From Bacteroidales bacterium (lineage in GTDB: Bacteria; Bacteroidota; Bacteroidia; Bacteroidales; Muribaculaceae), in NCBI GenBank assembly GCA_014800795.1, contig JAAVFL010000028.1, forward strand, positions 1 through 63,871: DNA of 63,871 nucleotides, read 5' to 3'. This document shows positions 13,423 to 63,871 of the stretch, piece after piece (within the stretch, counting starts at the first letter, position 1; each line of letters begins with the position of its first letter). The translations under genes were made by a program, and so were the position numbers. The notes under the pieces are model-generated. The model made no database searches, was not told where the DNA came from, and saw nothing but the letters and a program-made list of their open reading frames with translations.

Positions 13423-13833
13423 ATGAAAAAAGTATTTTCATTAATGTTGCTGCTCGCAACAATTTTTATCGTTCTGCCAGGTTGCTCTGATGACAAAGAT
13501 GAGCCTGGTGGAGGTATCAAAGAAAACATCGTCGGTACATGGACCGGTACTGCTGCAAAAATTGATGGCAAGTGGATAGATATAACCAAATATCCTTACA
13601 ACACTCGTTTGGGCTTCTCTGCAACTTTCTATGATGATGGTACCTATTACGGTAAAGGAGCATTCGGAACGGGGAGTGGAACCTATAAAATCAAGGGTAA
13701 CACAATCGAAACGTATGTTGGTGGAAATTTATATCTTAAATATGAGGTGAAGGAAATGACAAGCTCTACCGCAGAACTTACAATCATAGAGGGAAATTCA
13801 ACTCTTGATGTCAAAGTTGTTAAAACTAAGTAA
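13423..13833 (+). CDS. lipocalin-like lipoprotein
   Basis: 136 residues. MKKVFSLMLLLATIFIVLPG followed by C21 is a lipoprotein signal with a clear lipobox; acidic DDKDEP after the cysteine suits outer-membrane sorting in Bacteroidetes. The mature part (GTWTGTAAKIDGKW, ATFYDDGTYY, GTGSGTYKIKGNTIE) has the alternating strands of small lipocalin-like domains. Ligand unknown. The last codon and stop fall inside the palindromic repeat at 13828-13884, so the repeat now supplies the stop codon. Confidence 0.8.
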   Translation: MKKVFSLMLLLATIFIVLPGCSDDKDEPGGGIKENIVGTWTGTAAKIDGKWIDITKYPYNTRLGFSATFYDDGTYYGKGAFGTGSGTYKIKGNTIETYVGGNLYLKYEVKEMTSSTAELTIIEGNSTLDVKVVKTK

Positions 13834-13884
13834 GTCATGAAAATTATCACGGATAATATAAAATAATTCCCACGACTTACTTAA
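13828..13884. repeat. palindromic repeat, short form (copy A)
   Basis: 57 bp with inverted ends AAGTAAGTC(A/G)TG. In reverse complement it matches the short copy at 42514-42564, including the central ATTTTATATTATCCGT. The ends are shared with the two long copies at 16986 and 42224. It overlaps the stop codon of the upstream lipoprotein gene. Confidence 0.8.
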
Positions 13885-16978: not shown

Positions 16979-16985
16979 TACTCAT

Positions 16986-17197
16986 AAGTAAGTCGTAAAA
17001 ATTATTTTATACTTTCAGGGAGTGTATTTTTGAGCGACTTTCGCTCGAAGATGAAGGAGTGTAGATGTCTACACGTTATCGCCTGCGCTTTTGAGCTTGT
17101 CGAAAAAGACTGAAGATGAGAGTGAACCAAAAAGATGCCGCTGAAAGTGTAAAATATCTATTTTGAACATATATGTAATAATTTTCATGACTTACTT
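16986..17197. repeat. palindromic repeat, long form (copy B)
   Basis: About 212 bp with inverted ends AAGTAAGTCGT.../...ATGACTTACTT, nested inner inverted repeat ACTTTCAG/CTGAAAGT, and two internal hairpins GAGCGACTTTCGCTC (17032-17046) and GTGTAGATGTCTACAC (17059-17074). Nearly identical to copy C at 42224-42440. No protein gene inside, as in a MITE-like element. Confidence 0.85.
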
Positions 17198-17243
17198 AAT
17201 ATGTTCTCATGATATTGTTTCAGATTTACTATGTTCAATATAT

Positions 17244-42150: not shown

Positions 42151-42223
42151 AAAATGCTAACCTGAATAACCCGCGGATTATATAAAGTTCATTTTGCGGT
42201 GGCACTTGTTTTTATTTCGCGAT

Positions 42224-42440
42224 AAGTAAGTCGTGAAAATTATTTTATACTTTCAGAGAGTGTATTTTTGAGCGACTTTCGCTCGAAGATGAATGAGTGT
42301 AGATGTCTACACGTTATCGCCTGCGCTTTTGAGCTTGTCGAAAAAGACTGAAGATGAGAGTGAAAAGCGCCAAAAAAATGCCGCTGAAAGTGTAAAATAT
42401 CTATTTTGAACATATATGTAATAATTTTCATGACTTACTT
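42224..42440. repeat. palindromic repeat, long form (copy C)
   Basis: About 217 bp, nearly the same as copy B: AAGTAAGTCGTGAAAATTAT end, ACTTTCAG/CTGAAAGT inner arms, GAGCGACTTTCGCTC and GTGTAGATGTCTACAC hairpins. Differs by a few substitutions and a 5-nt length change near 42365. It lies in the intergenic region before the SGNH gene. Confidence 0.85.
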
Positions 42441-42455
42441 ATCGGTGAAAAATAT

Positions 42456-59921: not shown

Positions 59922-62126
59922 TCAGAGTGTGAATTTTACTGACTTGAGGCTGGAGCTGTCGGTCCCCACCATGAATGTGAAATCTCCTTTTTCGACGCGA
60001 TATTTCATGTCGTTGTCGTAAAAGCCGAGCTGAGCGTCGGTGATGGGGAAGGTTACGGTTCGCGTTTCTCCCGGAGCGAGCGCTATTTTTTCGAACCCTT
60101 TGAGTTCCTTGATGGGGCGTGTGACGGAGGCGACTTCATCGCGTACATATAGCTGCACCACCTCTTCACCCGGGCGTTTGCCGGTATTTGTCACATCTAC
60201 TGTCACAACGGCATATTCGCCGGGTTTAGCCGATGGGGTGACATTCGGCTCAGAGTAGCTGAATGTGGTGTAGGACAGGCCATATCCGAAAGGATATGCC
60301 GGTGCGGTGGGTATGTCGCGATAGGTTGTACACCATCCGCCTTTAGCTGTGGGGCGTCCGGTGCTTTTATATTGATAATTGAGCGGTAGCTGGCCGTTGT
60401 GGGCGGGGAATGATACGGGGAGTTTCCCTGAAGGGTTATAATCGCCCCACAGTACATCGCATATTGCATTTCCGGCTTCTGTGCCGAGCCACCATGTGCA
60501 TAGAATTGCCGGAGCTTCTTCACGCACTTGGTTGAATATGACCGGGCGTCCGCACATAAGGAGTACTATAACCGGTTTCCCGGTTTTTACGAGTTCGGAA
60601 ACGAGGCGCTGCTGGTCGGCAGAGATGGAAATATCGCCTTTGGATGCCATTTCGCCGGTATCGGACGCGCGTTCTCCCATCGCTACGATAACTACATCGG
60701 CATTTCGGGCCGATGCGAGGGTCTGTCCGAGGTTCGAGATGTTGTTGGAGTCGATGTCGTAGCCATCGTTGTAGTCGACTTCAAGTCCGCGTGATTTGAG
60801 CGCGTCGTATAGGGTGACAGCCGTGTTGGTATAAGCGCAGGTCCATGAACCGCACATGTCGCGCTGCGACTTGGCGAGCGGACCTACCAACGCCACTTTC
60901 CTTATGTCGGTGGAGAGGGGGAGTATATCGTACTGATTTTTCAGAAGTACGATTGAGCGCTGTGCCACATGGCGGGCTTCATCGTGGGACTGACGCGAGT
61001 TGATGATCTCTTTCTCGCGGTTTTCGTCGCAGTAGCGGTAGGGATCGTCAAAGAGTCCGAGCCGGTATTTCTGCTCCAGGATGCGGCGCACTGCGTCGTC
61101 TATCAGTTTCATTGATACTTTGCCATCTTTTACAAGCCGGGCGAGATTGTCGGTATAACATTCGCTGACCATCTCCATATCGAGCCCGGCTGTGATGGCC
61201 TTGAGGGCGGCGTCGGCGTGGTCGGCGGCGTAGCGATGGTTGATCATTTCTTCAACAGAGCCCCAGTCGGATACAACAAATCCGTCGAATCCCCATTTGT
61301 TTTTGAGTAGATCGCGGAGCAGGAATGTGTTGCCGGTGCAGGGTATGTTGTTGAAGTCGTTGAATGCGCTCATAAAGGTTGCGGCTCCAGCGTCGGCTCC
61401 TGCTTTATAGGGGGGCATATAGAAGTTGGCGAATTGCCCCATCGACATATCTACACTGTTGTAGTCTTTGCCGGCCATGGGGGCTCCATAACCTCCGAAG
61501 TGTTTTATGCATGCCATAATGGTAGCGGTATCGGCCAGGTTGTCGCCTTGCAGTCCACGAACGCGGGCCGCGGCGACTTTGGCTCCGTAAAACGGATCTT
61601 CTCCGGCTCCTTCCATAACTCGTCCCCAACGGGCGTCCCAGCTAACATCTACCATAGGTGCGAATGTCCAGTGTAGCCCGGCGGCAGCCGCTTCGCGTGC
61701 CGAGCAGCGCGCACTCATCTCAATGGCATCGAGATCGAAGCTGGCAGCCTCACCAAGCGGTATTGGAAATCCGGTTCGAAATCCGTGAATCACATCCATA
61801 CCGAAAATTAATGGTATACCGAGGCGCGACTGCATGGCAGCTTCCTGGAATTTACGTGTCTCCGTAGCTCCCGACACATTGAGCATCGAGCCTATTTTTC
61901 CTTCACTTACGAGGGGTGCGCGGCTGATGCGGGAGTTGTCGGGGCCGGTTGCGTAGCCTTCCGAGCATTGGCTGAGCTGGCCAATTTTCTCCTCAAGTGT
62001 CATGCGCTTCATGAGCGATGAGATGAAGCGATCCATCTCTTTGTCTTGCTTCTTTGTGGCATTAGCCGATGGCAAAGAGAAGGCAATGATTGCAAGGATG
62101 AATGTTATGATGGTTTGTTTTTTCAT
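59922..62126 (-). CDS. bglX: GH3 family beta-glucosidase, BglX type
   Basis: 734 residues with a signal peptide (MKKQTIITFILAIIAFSLPSANA). RMTLEEKIGQLSQ, FGMDVIHGFRTGFPIPL, FAPMVDVSWDARWGRVMEGAGEDP, KHFGGYGAPMAGKDYN and the nucleophile Asp in GFVVSDWGS are typical BglX blocks; the GERASDTGEM sandwich domain and the C-terminal fibronectin-type domain are complete. It heads the operon and ends 10 nt before the 2-epimerase gene, an unusual pairing with nonulosonate genes. Confidence 0.93.
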   Translation of the reverse strand: MKKQTIITFILAIIAFSLPSANATKKQDKEMDRFISSLMKRMTLEEKIGQLSQCSEGYATGPDNSRISRAPLVSEGKIGSMLNVSGATETRKFQEAAMQSRLGIPLIFGMDVIHGFRTGFPIPLGEAASFDLDAIEMSARCSAREAAAAGLHWTFAPMVDVSWDARWGRVMEGAGEDPFYGAKVAAARVRGLQGDNLADTATIMACIKHFGGYGAPMAGKDYNSVDMSMGQFANFYMPPYKAGADAGAATFMSAFNDFNNIPCTGNTFLLRDLLKNKWGFDGFVVSDWGSVEEMINHRYAADHADAALKAITAGLDMEMVSECYTDNLARLVKDGKVSMKLIDDAVRRILEQKYRLGLFDDPYRYCDENREKEIINSRQSHDEARHVAQRSIVLLKNQYDILPLSTDIRKVALVGPLAKSQRDMCGSWTCAYTNTAVTLYDALKSRGLEVDYNDGYDIDSNNISNLGQTLASARNADVVIVAMGERASDTGEMASKGDISISADQQRLVSELVKTGKPVIVLLMCGRPVIFNQVREEAPAILCTWWLGTEAGNAICDVLWGDYNPSGKLPVSFPAHNGQLPLNYQYKSTGRPTAKGGWCTTYRDIPTAPAYPFGYGLSYTTFSYSEPNVTPSAKPGEYAVVTVDVTNTGKRPGEEVVQLYVRDEVASVTRPIKELKGFEKIALAPGETRTVTFPITDAQLGFYDNDMKYRVEKGDFTFMVGTDSSSLKSVKFTL

Positions 62127-62211: not shown

Positions 62212-62249
62212 ATATCAGGGCCCCGACAATTTGTCGGAGCCCTGATATC
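62212..62249 (-). terminator. tRNA-Cys terminator
   Basis: ATATCAGGGC(C)CCGACA pairs with TGTCGG(A)GCCCTGATAT; on the minus strand T6 follows. It starts 3 nt after the tRNA. Confidence 0.9.
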
Positions 62250-62251
62250 TG

Positions 62252-62322
62252 AGGTGCCAAGCGGATTCGAACCGCTGTAGACGGTTTTGCAGACCGGTAC
62301 CTAACCACTCGGACATGGCACC
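62252..62322 (-). tRNA. tRNA-Cys (anticodon GCA)
   Basis: 71 nt on the minus strand: acceptor GGTGCCA/TGGCACC, discriminator U as expected for tRNA-Cys, anticodon loop CTGCAAA, T arm AGCGG-TTCGAAT-CCGCT. CCA not encoded. Confidence 0.96.
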
Positions 62323-62338
62323 ATAGTGATTGCGGGTA

Positions 62339-62346
62339 CAAAGGTA
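62339..62346 (-). promoter_or_regulatory. tRNA-Cys promoter -7 box
   Basis: Minus-strand TACCTTTG about 20 nt before the tRNA. Between here and 62528 nothing further was recognised. Confidence 0.6.
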
Positions 62347-62528
62347 CGCATAATTTTTGAATCTGCAAATCTCTTTCGATTTTTTTTTGAAAAGAGATTT
62401 TGCATAAAAACGGAAGCGGAGTTTGGTAGTGCGTATTTATGAACGGATTATGGGCGTCCTATCCGGGTAGAACCGGATGCATGTCCATGTCAATAATCAT
62501 AGTTTCCGATGAGACGGGATGGCAGTAA

Positions 62529-62726
62529 CTCTTTACAAGAGATCTTGAACTTTCATATTATACAGATAATTAGGTATATACGTCCGGTTGAATACGACTT
62601 TTGCTAAACATTATTGGTTTTCAGCCCGATTTTTTGATTAGTGTGGAAAGTTTTTAAGCACATATCACCGTCTTTTTCAGATATTATTAGTAACTTTGCA
62701 ATGACATTAGTATCTCTTGTAAAGAG
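62529..62726 (+). promoter_or_regulatory. probable invertible promoter segment of surface polysaccharide locus
   Basis: CTCTTTACAAGAGAT (62529-62543) occurs inverted as ATCTCTTGTAAAGAG (62712-62726), 168 bp apart. Each arm is itself a dyad (CTCTT-TAC-AAGAG). A -7 box TAACTTTG pointing to upxY lies 13 bp inside the right arm. Size, position and polarity match the recombinase-switched capsule promoters of Bacteroides; as written, the switch is ON. No recombinase gene is next to it. Confidence 0.68.
62691..62698 (+). promoter_or_regulatory. upxY promoter -7 box
   Basis: TAACTTTGC within the invertible segment. The start near 62705 gives a leader of about 190 nt before upxY. The -33 region is T-rich (TCTTTTTC) but has no exact TTTG. 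Confidence 0.65.
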
Positions 62727-62844
62727 AGCGGTATGGAATAGCTGCTTGATTGCAAGATATCAAATGTCGCAACCACCTGAAAAGCACCTGTATAGGCTCG
62801 TTCATGAGATCCGAGGCGTAAGTAGACGGACGGTTGTGAGTAAT

Positions 62845-62873
62845 GCGTGATATGTATATATAAATTGTCACGC
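62845..62873 (+). promoter_or_regulatory. hairpin in upxY leader
   Basis: GCGTGA pairs with TCACGC around an AT-rich loop, followed by AAAAAGGAAG 20 nt before the start codon. In Bacteroides capsule operons, UpxY proteins act on such leaders to prevent early termination; a similar role here is inference. Confidence 0.45.
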
Positions 62874-62896
62874 AAAAAGGAAGGCTATTGACTTAT

Positions 62897-63442
62897 ATGA
62901 ACGAAACTGCAATAGAAGTAAACAGCAAAACTGAATGGTTTGCCATAAAAACACGTCAGGATTTCCGCGCCGAGGAGGAACTATCGCCTCTGTGTGAAGA
63001 AGTGCTGTTTCCCAAAGAAATTATCTCGGTTTCGGGTAAACGTAACCGTGTGAAAGCTGTCATACCCCGTGTCTTGTTTATCAGAACTCAACGCAAAGAG
63101 GCTCTTGAGCTTGAAAAGCGTGGTAGGGAACATCCGGAGTTGTCGGTTCCGTTCTGGATATACCGCTATCCGAAGGACGACAGCATCCAGGTAATTCCGC
63201 AGAGTTCAATAAATCTTCTGCGTCTTCTCACAGCCGATGATACGACCCGTTGCGAGATATTCAGCAAGTCGGATTTCAGCGTAAACCAGCGTGTGCGTGT
63301 GACGGGTGGATATTTCGAGGGTTGCGAGGGTTACGTTCAGCGTGTGCGAAAGAACAAACACGTGATAGTCAGGATCGAGGGTGTTTGTATGGTTATGCTG
63401 CCTTTCATCCATCCCGACCTTCTGGAGCCGGTGGCAGACTGA
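62897..63442 (+). CDS. upxY: UpxY-type NusG-like transcription antiterminator
   Basis: 181 residues from ATG 62897 (MNETAIEVNSKTEWFAIKTR); a TTG three codons upstream is less likely. The NusG N-terminal fold (WFAIKTRQDFRAEEEL, IPRVLFIRT) is followed by a KOW-like domain (FSVNQRVRVTGGYFEGCEGYVQRV). UpxY proteins lead capsule/EPS operons in Bacteroidales and let RNA polymerase pass leader terminators of their own locus. It precedes ugd by 34 nt, as expected for the head of a polysaccharide locus. Confidence 0.9.
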   Translation: MNETAIEVNSKTEWFAIKTRQDFRAEEELSPLCEEVLFPKEIISVSGKRNRVKAVIPRVLFIRTQRKEALELEKRGREHPELSVPFWIYRYPKDDSIQVIPQSSINLLRLLTADDTTRCEIFSKSDFSVNQRVRVTGGYFEGCEGYVQRVRKNKHVIVRIEGVCMVMLPFIHPDLLEPVAD

Positions 63443-63476: not shown

Positions 63477-63871
63477 ATGAAAATAGCAGTAGCAGGCACA
63501 GGTTACGTAGGCCTGAGCATCGCCACTTTGCTTGCGCATCACAACACGGTAGTGGCTGTGGATGTGGTTCCCGAGAAGGTTGATCTGATCAACCGCCGCA
63601 TCTCCCCGATTCAGGACGACTGTATCGAGCGGTATCTGGCGGATGAGTCTCTGGAGCTCCGTGCTACGCTCGACGGGTCAGAGGCGTACGGCGATGCCGA
63701 TTTCGTGGTTATCGCCACTCCGACGAACTACGACCCTCAGCGCAACTATTTCGACACCCATTCGATCGAGGATGTGATAGACCTGGTTCTGAGCGTGAAC
63801 CCGGATGCGGTGATGGTTATAAAATCGACCATCCCCGTGGGTTACTGCCGGAGCCTTTACGCGCGCTATGC
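63477..63871 (+). CDS. ugd: UDP-glucose 6-dehydrogenase family, partial at window end
   Basis: Starts MKIAVAGTGYVGLSIATLLA (NAD-binding glycine loop), continues ISPIQDDCIERYLAD, DFVVIATPTNYDP and VIKSTIPVGY. 131 residues are visible and the frame is open at the edge. The family oxidises UDP-glucose or UDP-N-acetyl sugars to uronic acids for surface polysaccharide; the nucleotide-sugar specificity region is outside the window. Confidence 0.93.
   Translation, partial: MKIAVAGTGYVGLSIATLLAHHNTVVAVDVVPEKVDLINRRISPIQDDCIERYLADESLELRATLDGSEAYGDADFVVIATPTNYDPQRNYFDTHSIEDVIDLVLSVNPDAVMVIKSTIPVGYCRSLYARY

Follow-up and report, generated by a model that had tools for sequence, protein, structure and literature searches.

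A putative phase-variable promoter ahead of upxY in a Muribaculaceae genome, bounded by inverted repeats with a private spacer and associated with a tyrosine recombinase

Capsule promoters switched by DNA inversion have been described in Bacteroides. In the sections of two papers that treat them, the capsule promoters of B. fragilis are controlled by Mpi, a serine recombinase, and Mpi homologues are proposed as the enzymes for PVR7-12 of B. intestinalis (PMC8375218, PMC4747536). For the latter species, an approximate capsule transcript start is placed inside the proximal repeat in the relevant section of PMC8375218. B. fragilis Tsr19 (BF2766) is presented in part of PMC4747536, with IVp-I and IVp-II, as an enzyme encoded beside one invertible promoter and acting on a distant one. 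Inverton groups and linked invertase groups have been defined in the hCom2 community, according to the main text of PMC11892184, and a section of PMC8748976 deals with invertible promoters from glycan-synthesis loci that drive resistance genes on conjugative elements. That is, invertible capsule promoters, adjoining tyrosine invertases and links between repeats and invertases are already known from the portions of these papers devoted to them (PMC4747536, PMC8375218, PMC11892184, PMC8748976).

Here, we analysed the whole of contig C28 (63,871 bp, hereafter the window) from the 2.72-Mb, 54-contig assembly of a Muribaculaceae genome (G000). The window contains a perfect 15-bp inverted repeat on the plus strand, CTCTTTACAAGAGAT at 62529-62543 and ATCTCTTGTAAAGAG at 62712-62726, whose arms are 100% complementary and enclose a putative invertible segment of 168 bp (62544-62711). 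Motif and position identify TAACTTTG (62691-62698, plus strand) as a Bacteroidetes -7 box, matching TAnnTTTG, the -7 sequence of Bacteroides in the corresponding section of PMC4747536. The box lies 13 nt inside the right arm and is directed at a upxY-like gene, which the promoter thus faces in the present assembly; the preliminary description had reported this arrangement, and its coordinates proved exact. Each arm is itself near-palindromic (CTCT-N5-AGAG), and the left one, found by repeat search, has the core CTCT-TTACA-AGAG; the window contains just one other exact CTCTN5AGAG match. Measured from the 13-bp cores, the gap is 172 nt, within the central spacing peak of the family, and the box stands 15 nt from the core of the right arm. 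By prediction, this arm falls close to the transcript's 5' end, where it could form a short hairpin.

A scan of the whole window yielded two perfect inverted repeats of at least 13 nt with a gap of 60-400, the longest being the repeat at 62529/62712. Among 3,000 dinucleotide shuffles of 62323-62900, a repeat of 13 nt was reached in six and one of 15 nt in none. A search for more copies of the 15-mer, as the preliminary description had recommended, found exact matches in the assembly only at the two arms and three further places with two mismatches. With a pattern of two CTCTN5AGAG sites separated by 158-187 nt, the only pair in the genome was that of the window. A third genome match, to TTTG-N-TCTCTN5AGAG on contig C34, was taken as chance; it lies within a long ORF, and no inverted partner was found nearby.

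The gene downstream of the segment (62897-63442, plus strand, with its ATG at 62897) encodes a homologue of NusG/RfaH-type antiterminators that matches the UpxY profile NF033644 (antiterm_UpxY) at E 6.9e-21 over profile positions 1-163 of 164, with a score of 74.9 bits that is below the curated cut-off of 100; a search for Pfam families in this protein at E <= 0.001 returned none. It is followed by a gene for a ugd-like UDP-sugar dehydrogenase (63477-63871, plus strand; PF03721, E 4.3e-21), which is incomplete because the window is the whole contig and the contig end cuts it off. Besides upxY, ugd is the sole gene of the capsule operon present on the contig. To the left of the segment lies a tRNA-Cys gene (62251-62322, minus strand), which the promoter would face after inversion. 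Downstream of this tRNA gene is a terminator-like hairpin (62212-62248, minus strand) with 18-nt arms that are 94% complementary and a T run after it on the minus strand; it separates the tRNA gene from an ORF of 734 aa (59922-62126). Transcription from an inverted promoter would be on the minus strand, codirectional with the tRNA gene and this ORF.

The arms and the promoter were compared among 51 of the 112 upxY matches in the family, mostly the closest ones and including a paralog on contig C20 of the same genome; some of these loci are cut by contig ends (L051, L078, L086). At ten of the 51 loci, two CTCTN5AGAG sites face each other as inverted copies and have one 5-nt spacer in common. 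The spacers of a pair are always equal, yet almost every one of the ten loci has a spacer of its own. Permuted control motifs gave no pairs, except for registers (TCTC; 7-nt spacer) that overlap the same sites. The promoter points towards upxY at six loci (L034, which is the window, L035, L037, L038, L039 and L042) and away from it at the other four (L036, L041, L043 and L063), the distance from -7 box to arm being 14-16 nt in eight of the ten and 26 and 37 nt in the remaining two. Another locus, L046, has a weaker 12-bp repeat with its box pointing away from upxY; it is not one of the ten, yet its genome (G046) is counted among the 11 upxY genomes, considered below, in which a repeat pair occurs. 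Arms that are matched at each locus and divergent between loci, together with both promoter orientations, are as inversion predicts, unlike a fixed hairpin or operator.

In a further comparison between elements, in which flanks and segments were aligned separately and which covered 127 elements, some loci being present twice as copies, the segment was reversed between collinear flanks in 19 comparisons and had the same sense in 74, several of which are duplicate copies. The 19 reversals represent four flipped cases, namely L252 against L259 and L269, L274 and L280 each against several others. Between L252 and L259 the reversed segment is 91% identical over 186 bp, with same-sense flanks of 84% over 354 bp and 97% over 71 bp. 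All four cases are recombinase loci of named public genomes and none is a upxY locus. The preliminary description had recommended a search of other strains for the inverted form; among the paired upxY loci of relatives, promoters of both orientations do occur, and its proposal of a phase-variable invertible promoter ahead of upxY is supported by matched arms, both orientations and reversed segments elsewhere. We assign a probability of about 0.82 to the reading that the segment is a phase-variable promoter of the upxY-ugd capsule operon, ON here, that would be inverted by a tyrosine recombinase, most likely an enzyme encoded on contig C10.

As suspected at the outset, the arms do not resemble the Mpi motif, CTCTTTACAAGAGAT having no match to ARACGTTCGTN, and the suspicion that a recombinase other than Mpi acts here found further ground in the distribution of enzymes. 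The serine recombinase domain PF00239 is absent from nine of the 11 paired upxY genomes (it is present in G000 and G049), and a serine invertase was accordingly judged an unlikely cause. A tyrosine recombinase of the C10 type is encoded in all 11. At three loci (L132, L133 and L136), an invertible upxY promoter has a tyrosine recombinase gene immediately next to it; the identity of these three proteins to the C10 enzyme is 61%, 54% and 42%. A tyrosine recombinase rather than an Mpi-type serine invertase therefore most likely works the segment.

The search for a recombinase in the window's own genome led to a single member of this subfamily, a stand-alone gene on contig C10 whose product, of 412 or 424 aa according to which start is used, is homologous to the enzymes found beside pairs and comprises the domains PF17293 (Arm-DNA-bind_5), PF13102 (SAM-like) and PF00589 (catalytic). 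The other tyrosine recombinases of the genome are much less similar to the L132, L133 and L136 enzymes. Recombinases of this kind usually, though not invariably, adjoin the segment they invert; this gene is not adjacent to the window's segment, being on a separate contig (C10 versus C28), and no exact CTCTN5AGAG occurs within 11.8 kb around it. An inverted repeat upstream of the gene was considered as a self-invertible promoter and rejected, since it belongs to a dispersed MITE-like repeat with further copies in the window. This repeat, of about 220 bp with the terminal repeat ATAAGTAAGTCGTG, is found at 42222-42442 and 16984-17199 of the window, as a fragment at 13826-13884, and at L168:6182-6403; one copy immediately precedes the C10 gene and extends as far as its predicted 412-aa start.

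Inversion of the segment by a different enzyme, either a serine recombinase encoded on contig C6 or another tyrosine recombinase such as one on C37, is the alternative that survives best, although we regard it as unlikely. It draws on the distance between the C10 gene and the window's repeat and on the 223-aa PF00239 protein that contig C6 does encode. In addition, the invertible upxY promoter of G033 is adjoined by a different tyrosine recombinase, and the homologue of that enzyme in the window's genome, on C37, is 44% identical to it. However, G033 encodes the C10 type as well, and a serine recombinase would have to act on arms unlike the Mpi repeat ARACGTTCGTN given in the relevant section of PMC8375218, in a group where most paired upxY genomes lack the PF00239 domain.

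The case for the C10 enzyme was extended to recombinase loci irrespective of upxY. A matched pair lies no more than 1.5 kb away at 20 of the 30 top-ranking recombinase loci. In named genomes (Muribaculaceae, Prevotella, Segatella and others), 41 of 80 loci have a pair no more than 2.5 kb from the recombinase, compared with 0 or 1 of 80 for control motifs. A -7 box lies within 40 nt of an arm in 37 of the 44 pairs at these named-genome loci, and of 38 -7 boxes near such pairs, 37 are 14-17 nt from the arm. The motif YVARHSW was present in all 108 distinct recombinase rows (115 loci less two removed by a length filter and five duplicates), a count that is biased because part of the set was gathered by a peptide pattern containing the motif. 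On a tree of these 108 enzymes, the presence or absence of sites is scattered and only loosely clustered, though more clustered than chance would have it: the site label requires 28 changes against a shuffled mean of 35.3, a value reached or undercut in three of 500 shuffles. On this tree, the closest partner of the C10 enzyme is an enzyme of Barnesiella sp. WM24, in whose flanks there is no site pair.

Enzyme and sites are also associated across whole genomes. We drew a sample of 397 genomes of the family and recorded pairs as CTCTN5AGAG - 158-187 nt - CTCTN5AGAG, with exact cores and without requiring equal spacers; the gap limit misses some real pairs, for example in G261. The pattern matched in 148 of the 397 genomes, and its backwards-read control in seven by our own table count. 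A recombinase match, defined by the C10 query at E <= 1e-50 with up to four candidates scored per genome, was obtained in 223. Both were present in 130 genomes, the recombinase only in 93, the pair only in 18 and neither in 156, which corresponds to an odds ratio of 12 (Fisher p 1.8e-24) and, after stratification by genus, of 9.4 (p 5e-13). The genome lists and genus labels behind these tests were compiled by hand; the totals of 223 and 148 agree, and 17 genus labels were checked. The 93 of 223 recombinase genomes that have no pair, and the 18 of 148 pair genomes that have no recombinase at this threshold, speak against the pairing of the C10 enzyme with the sites. Some genomes depart from the simple arrangement: in G087, G127 and G190, sites are directly repeated or form a series of three, possibly as deletions or nested switches.

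In an order-wide draw of 393 genomes, 15 matched the pair pattern, including three of the six from the window's own family. Outside the family the pattern was no more frequent than its control (12 versus 13 of 387); ten of these 12 genomes have matched spacers in the places listed, and two (G416 and G521) do not. Taken together, the family and order-wide counts suggest a system that is common in the window's family and patchy elsewhere.

The spacing of the paired sites looks helically phased. Core-to-core distances of 71 listed pairs from 50 genomes peak at about 162, 173 and 185 bp with a best period of 11.2, and none of 5,000 uniform draws, a null that ignores shared descent, was as periodic; the same held with one pair per genome. 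This count covers listed pairs only, and G177, G127 and one pair each of G087 and G190 were excluded as not being matched inverted pairs. For a smaller set of 31 pairs the best period was 11.9. This phasing points to a requirement for both sites to share a helix face if a short synaptic loop is to form.

Not every relative has both arms. On an alternative reading without inversion, the right arm might be a 5' mRNA hairpin or a protein-binding palindrome, with the left arm a relic and the promoter locked ON. The preliminary description had named the loss of one arm in relatives as grounds for refutation. Both arms are present at the ten paired loci, and a lone arm stands in the C20 paralog, L054 and L060, which indicates that an arm can persist without inversion. 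With L069 and L071, a palindromic arm without detected partner is kept at five loci. Three of them (L060, L069 and L071) belong to the window's genus, have upxY proteins that are 43-45% identical, and carry a palindrome of the type ACTCTCTCAA..AGAGA soon after the -7 box.

The C20 paralog (L020/L169) encodes a protein 81% identical to that of the window, its DNA being near-identical at the 3' end. Contig C20 stops right after this gene and before ugd, probably because of the upxY repeat. A lone CTCT-CCGTG-AGAG lies 3' of its -7 box, the 1.5 kb upstream yielded no inverted partner, and the promoter looks locked on. Compared with the window's right arm, the stem is retained in the paralog through a single compensatory change of one base pair. 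The hairpin may therefore serve some purpose by itself, which is the strongest argument in favour of a mere hairpin. But such a hairpin has no need of a left arm, and the one present here matches over 15 nt including the asymmetric spacer. In the relatives, too, a locus-specific spacer is common to the two arms and the promoter is found in either orientation, and we consider a fixed hairpin or palindrome quite improbable as the full explanation. That the repeats bound a small MITE-like mobile element rather than serving as recombination sites is most improbable, for although the genome does have such an element, delimited by terminal inverted repeats and present in the window as two copies and one fragment, the spacers of CTCTN5AGAG pairs differ by locus, the promoter keeps a near-fixed distance from one arm and the pair pattern occurs only once in the genome.

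Between the promoter and upxY, the alignment of 29 loci (A1) predicts a structured leader RNA with four proposed helices (62766-62848, plus strand), which is common to 29 of the 51 upxY loci. The loci were chosen by the core CCTG[TG]A[CT]AGG, and one of 30 matches (L070) was removed by eye; this core and helix 3 are therefore invariant by construction. Helices 1, 2 and 4 show two-sided changes in 11 of 13 pairs, 31 cells in all, helix 1 having been added by hand to the RNAalifold structure. None of 500 shuffles scored as high as the whole 16-pair structure, which was derived from the same alignment and is to that extent favoured in the covariation test, and shifting the partners lowered every measure. 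An Rfam search of the leader returned no match. Judged by its position and covariation, the leader is a candidate recognition element for the UpxY-type antiterminator.

Returning to the phase-variable promoter as the preferred reading, we propose that the 412-aa form of the C10 enzyme would bind two ATCTCT-N5-AGAGA(T) sites and invert the segment between them. Strand exchange would occur across the common 5-nt spacer, a step for which the matched spacers and the general behaviour of tyrosine recombinases argue. Private to each locus, the spacers should restrict recombination to the two sites of one pair, to the exclusion of other loci, and both sites would lie on one helix face of a small synaptic loop. 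In the ON state, transcription would start no more than about ten nt before the right arm and continue through the arm, possibly as a small hairpin, into the leader, upxY and the capsule genes; a start at that point would place the arm within the transcript. In the OFF state, the inverted promoter would face tRNA-Cys and read the minus strand up to the hairpin at 62212-62248.

On a broader scale, we lean, with reserve, towards a widespread promoter-invertase system of the family with relatives in Prevotella and Segatella, in which a YVARHSW enzyme would act on a fixed half-site with any 5-nt spacer to yield private, orthogonal switches of surface loci whose pairs are phased at about 162/173/185 bp; in the present genome, one stand-alone enzyme would serve a distant capsule promoter. 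Muribaculaceae are among the dominant bacteria of the mouse gut. With a defined site and enzyme, capsule switching would become readable straight from assemblies and reads. In addition, two questions would become simple to address, namely whether invertible promoters are kept independent by their spacers and whether helical phase limits the inversion of short segments by tyrosine recombinases.

How much of this is new depends on the published inverton groups. The hCom2 work is alike in linking repeat types statistically to nearby invertase families; its main text does not contain the strings AGAG, CTCT or Muribac, and one of its groups may overlap with ours (PMC11892184). In the open-access literature searched, there was nothing on invertible promoters or phase variation in Muribaculaceae, nor on tyrosine-recombinase inversion in Prevotella; the words 'Muribaculaceae' and 'invertible' occurred together only in a preprint on an assembler. 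From these literature searches, the combination of this enzyme with sites that have locus-private spacers and phased distances looks new, with the reservation that a published inverton group may be identical.

Among the described systems, the promoters on conjugative elements share with the window an invertible promoter ahead of a upxY-type gene and differ in context, which in the part of PMC8748976 concerned is resistance genes on mobile elements and here is a upxY-ugd operon beside a tRNA gene. Tsr19 is similar in being a tyrosine recombinase that acts on promoters for an extracellular polysaccharide, a likeness taken from its description in part of PMC4747536. From the sections cited at the beginning, the Mpi and PVR7-12 systems resemble the window in their promoter segments of less than 200 bp, short inverted repeats, capsule operons and ON/OFF control by inversion. 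The B. intestinalis transcript start inside the proximal repeat corresponds to a similar architecture here, where the predicted start lies close to the right arm. However, in the same sections their repeat, ARACGTTCGTN or GTTCGTTTAA, is common to the loci, whereas that of the window is CTCT-N5-AGAG with a spacer private to the locus, and their enzyme is the serine recombinase Mpi or, in B. intestinalis, a proposed homologue of it, whereas the enzyme associated with the window is a tyrosine recombinase.
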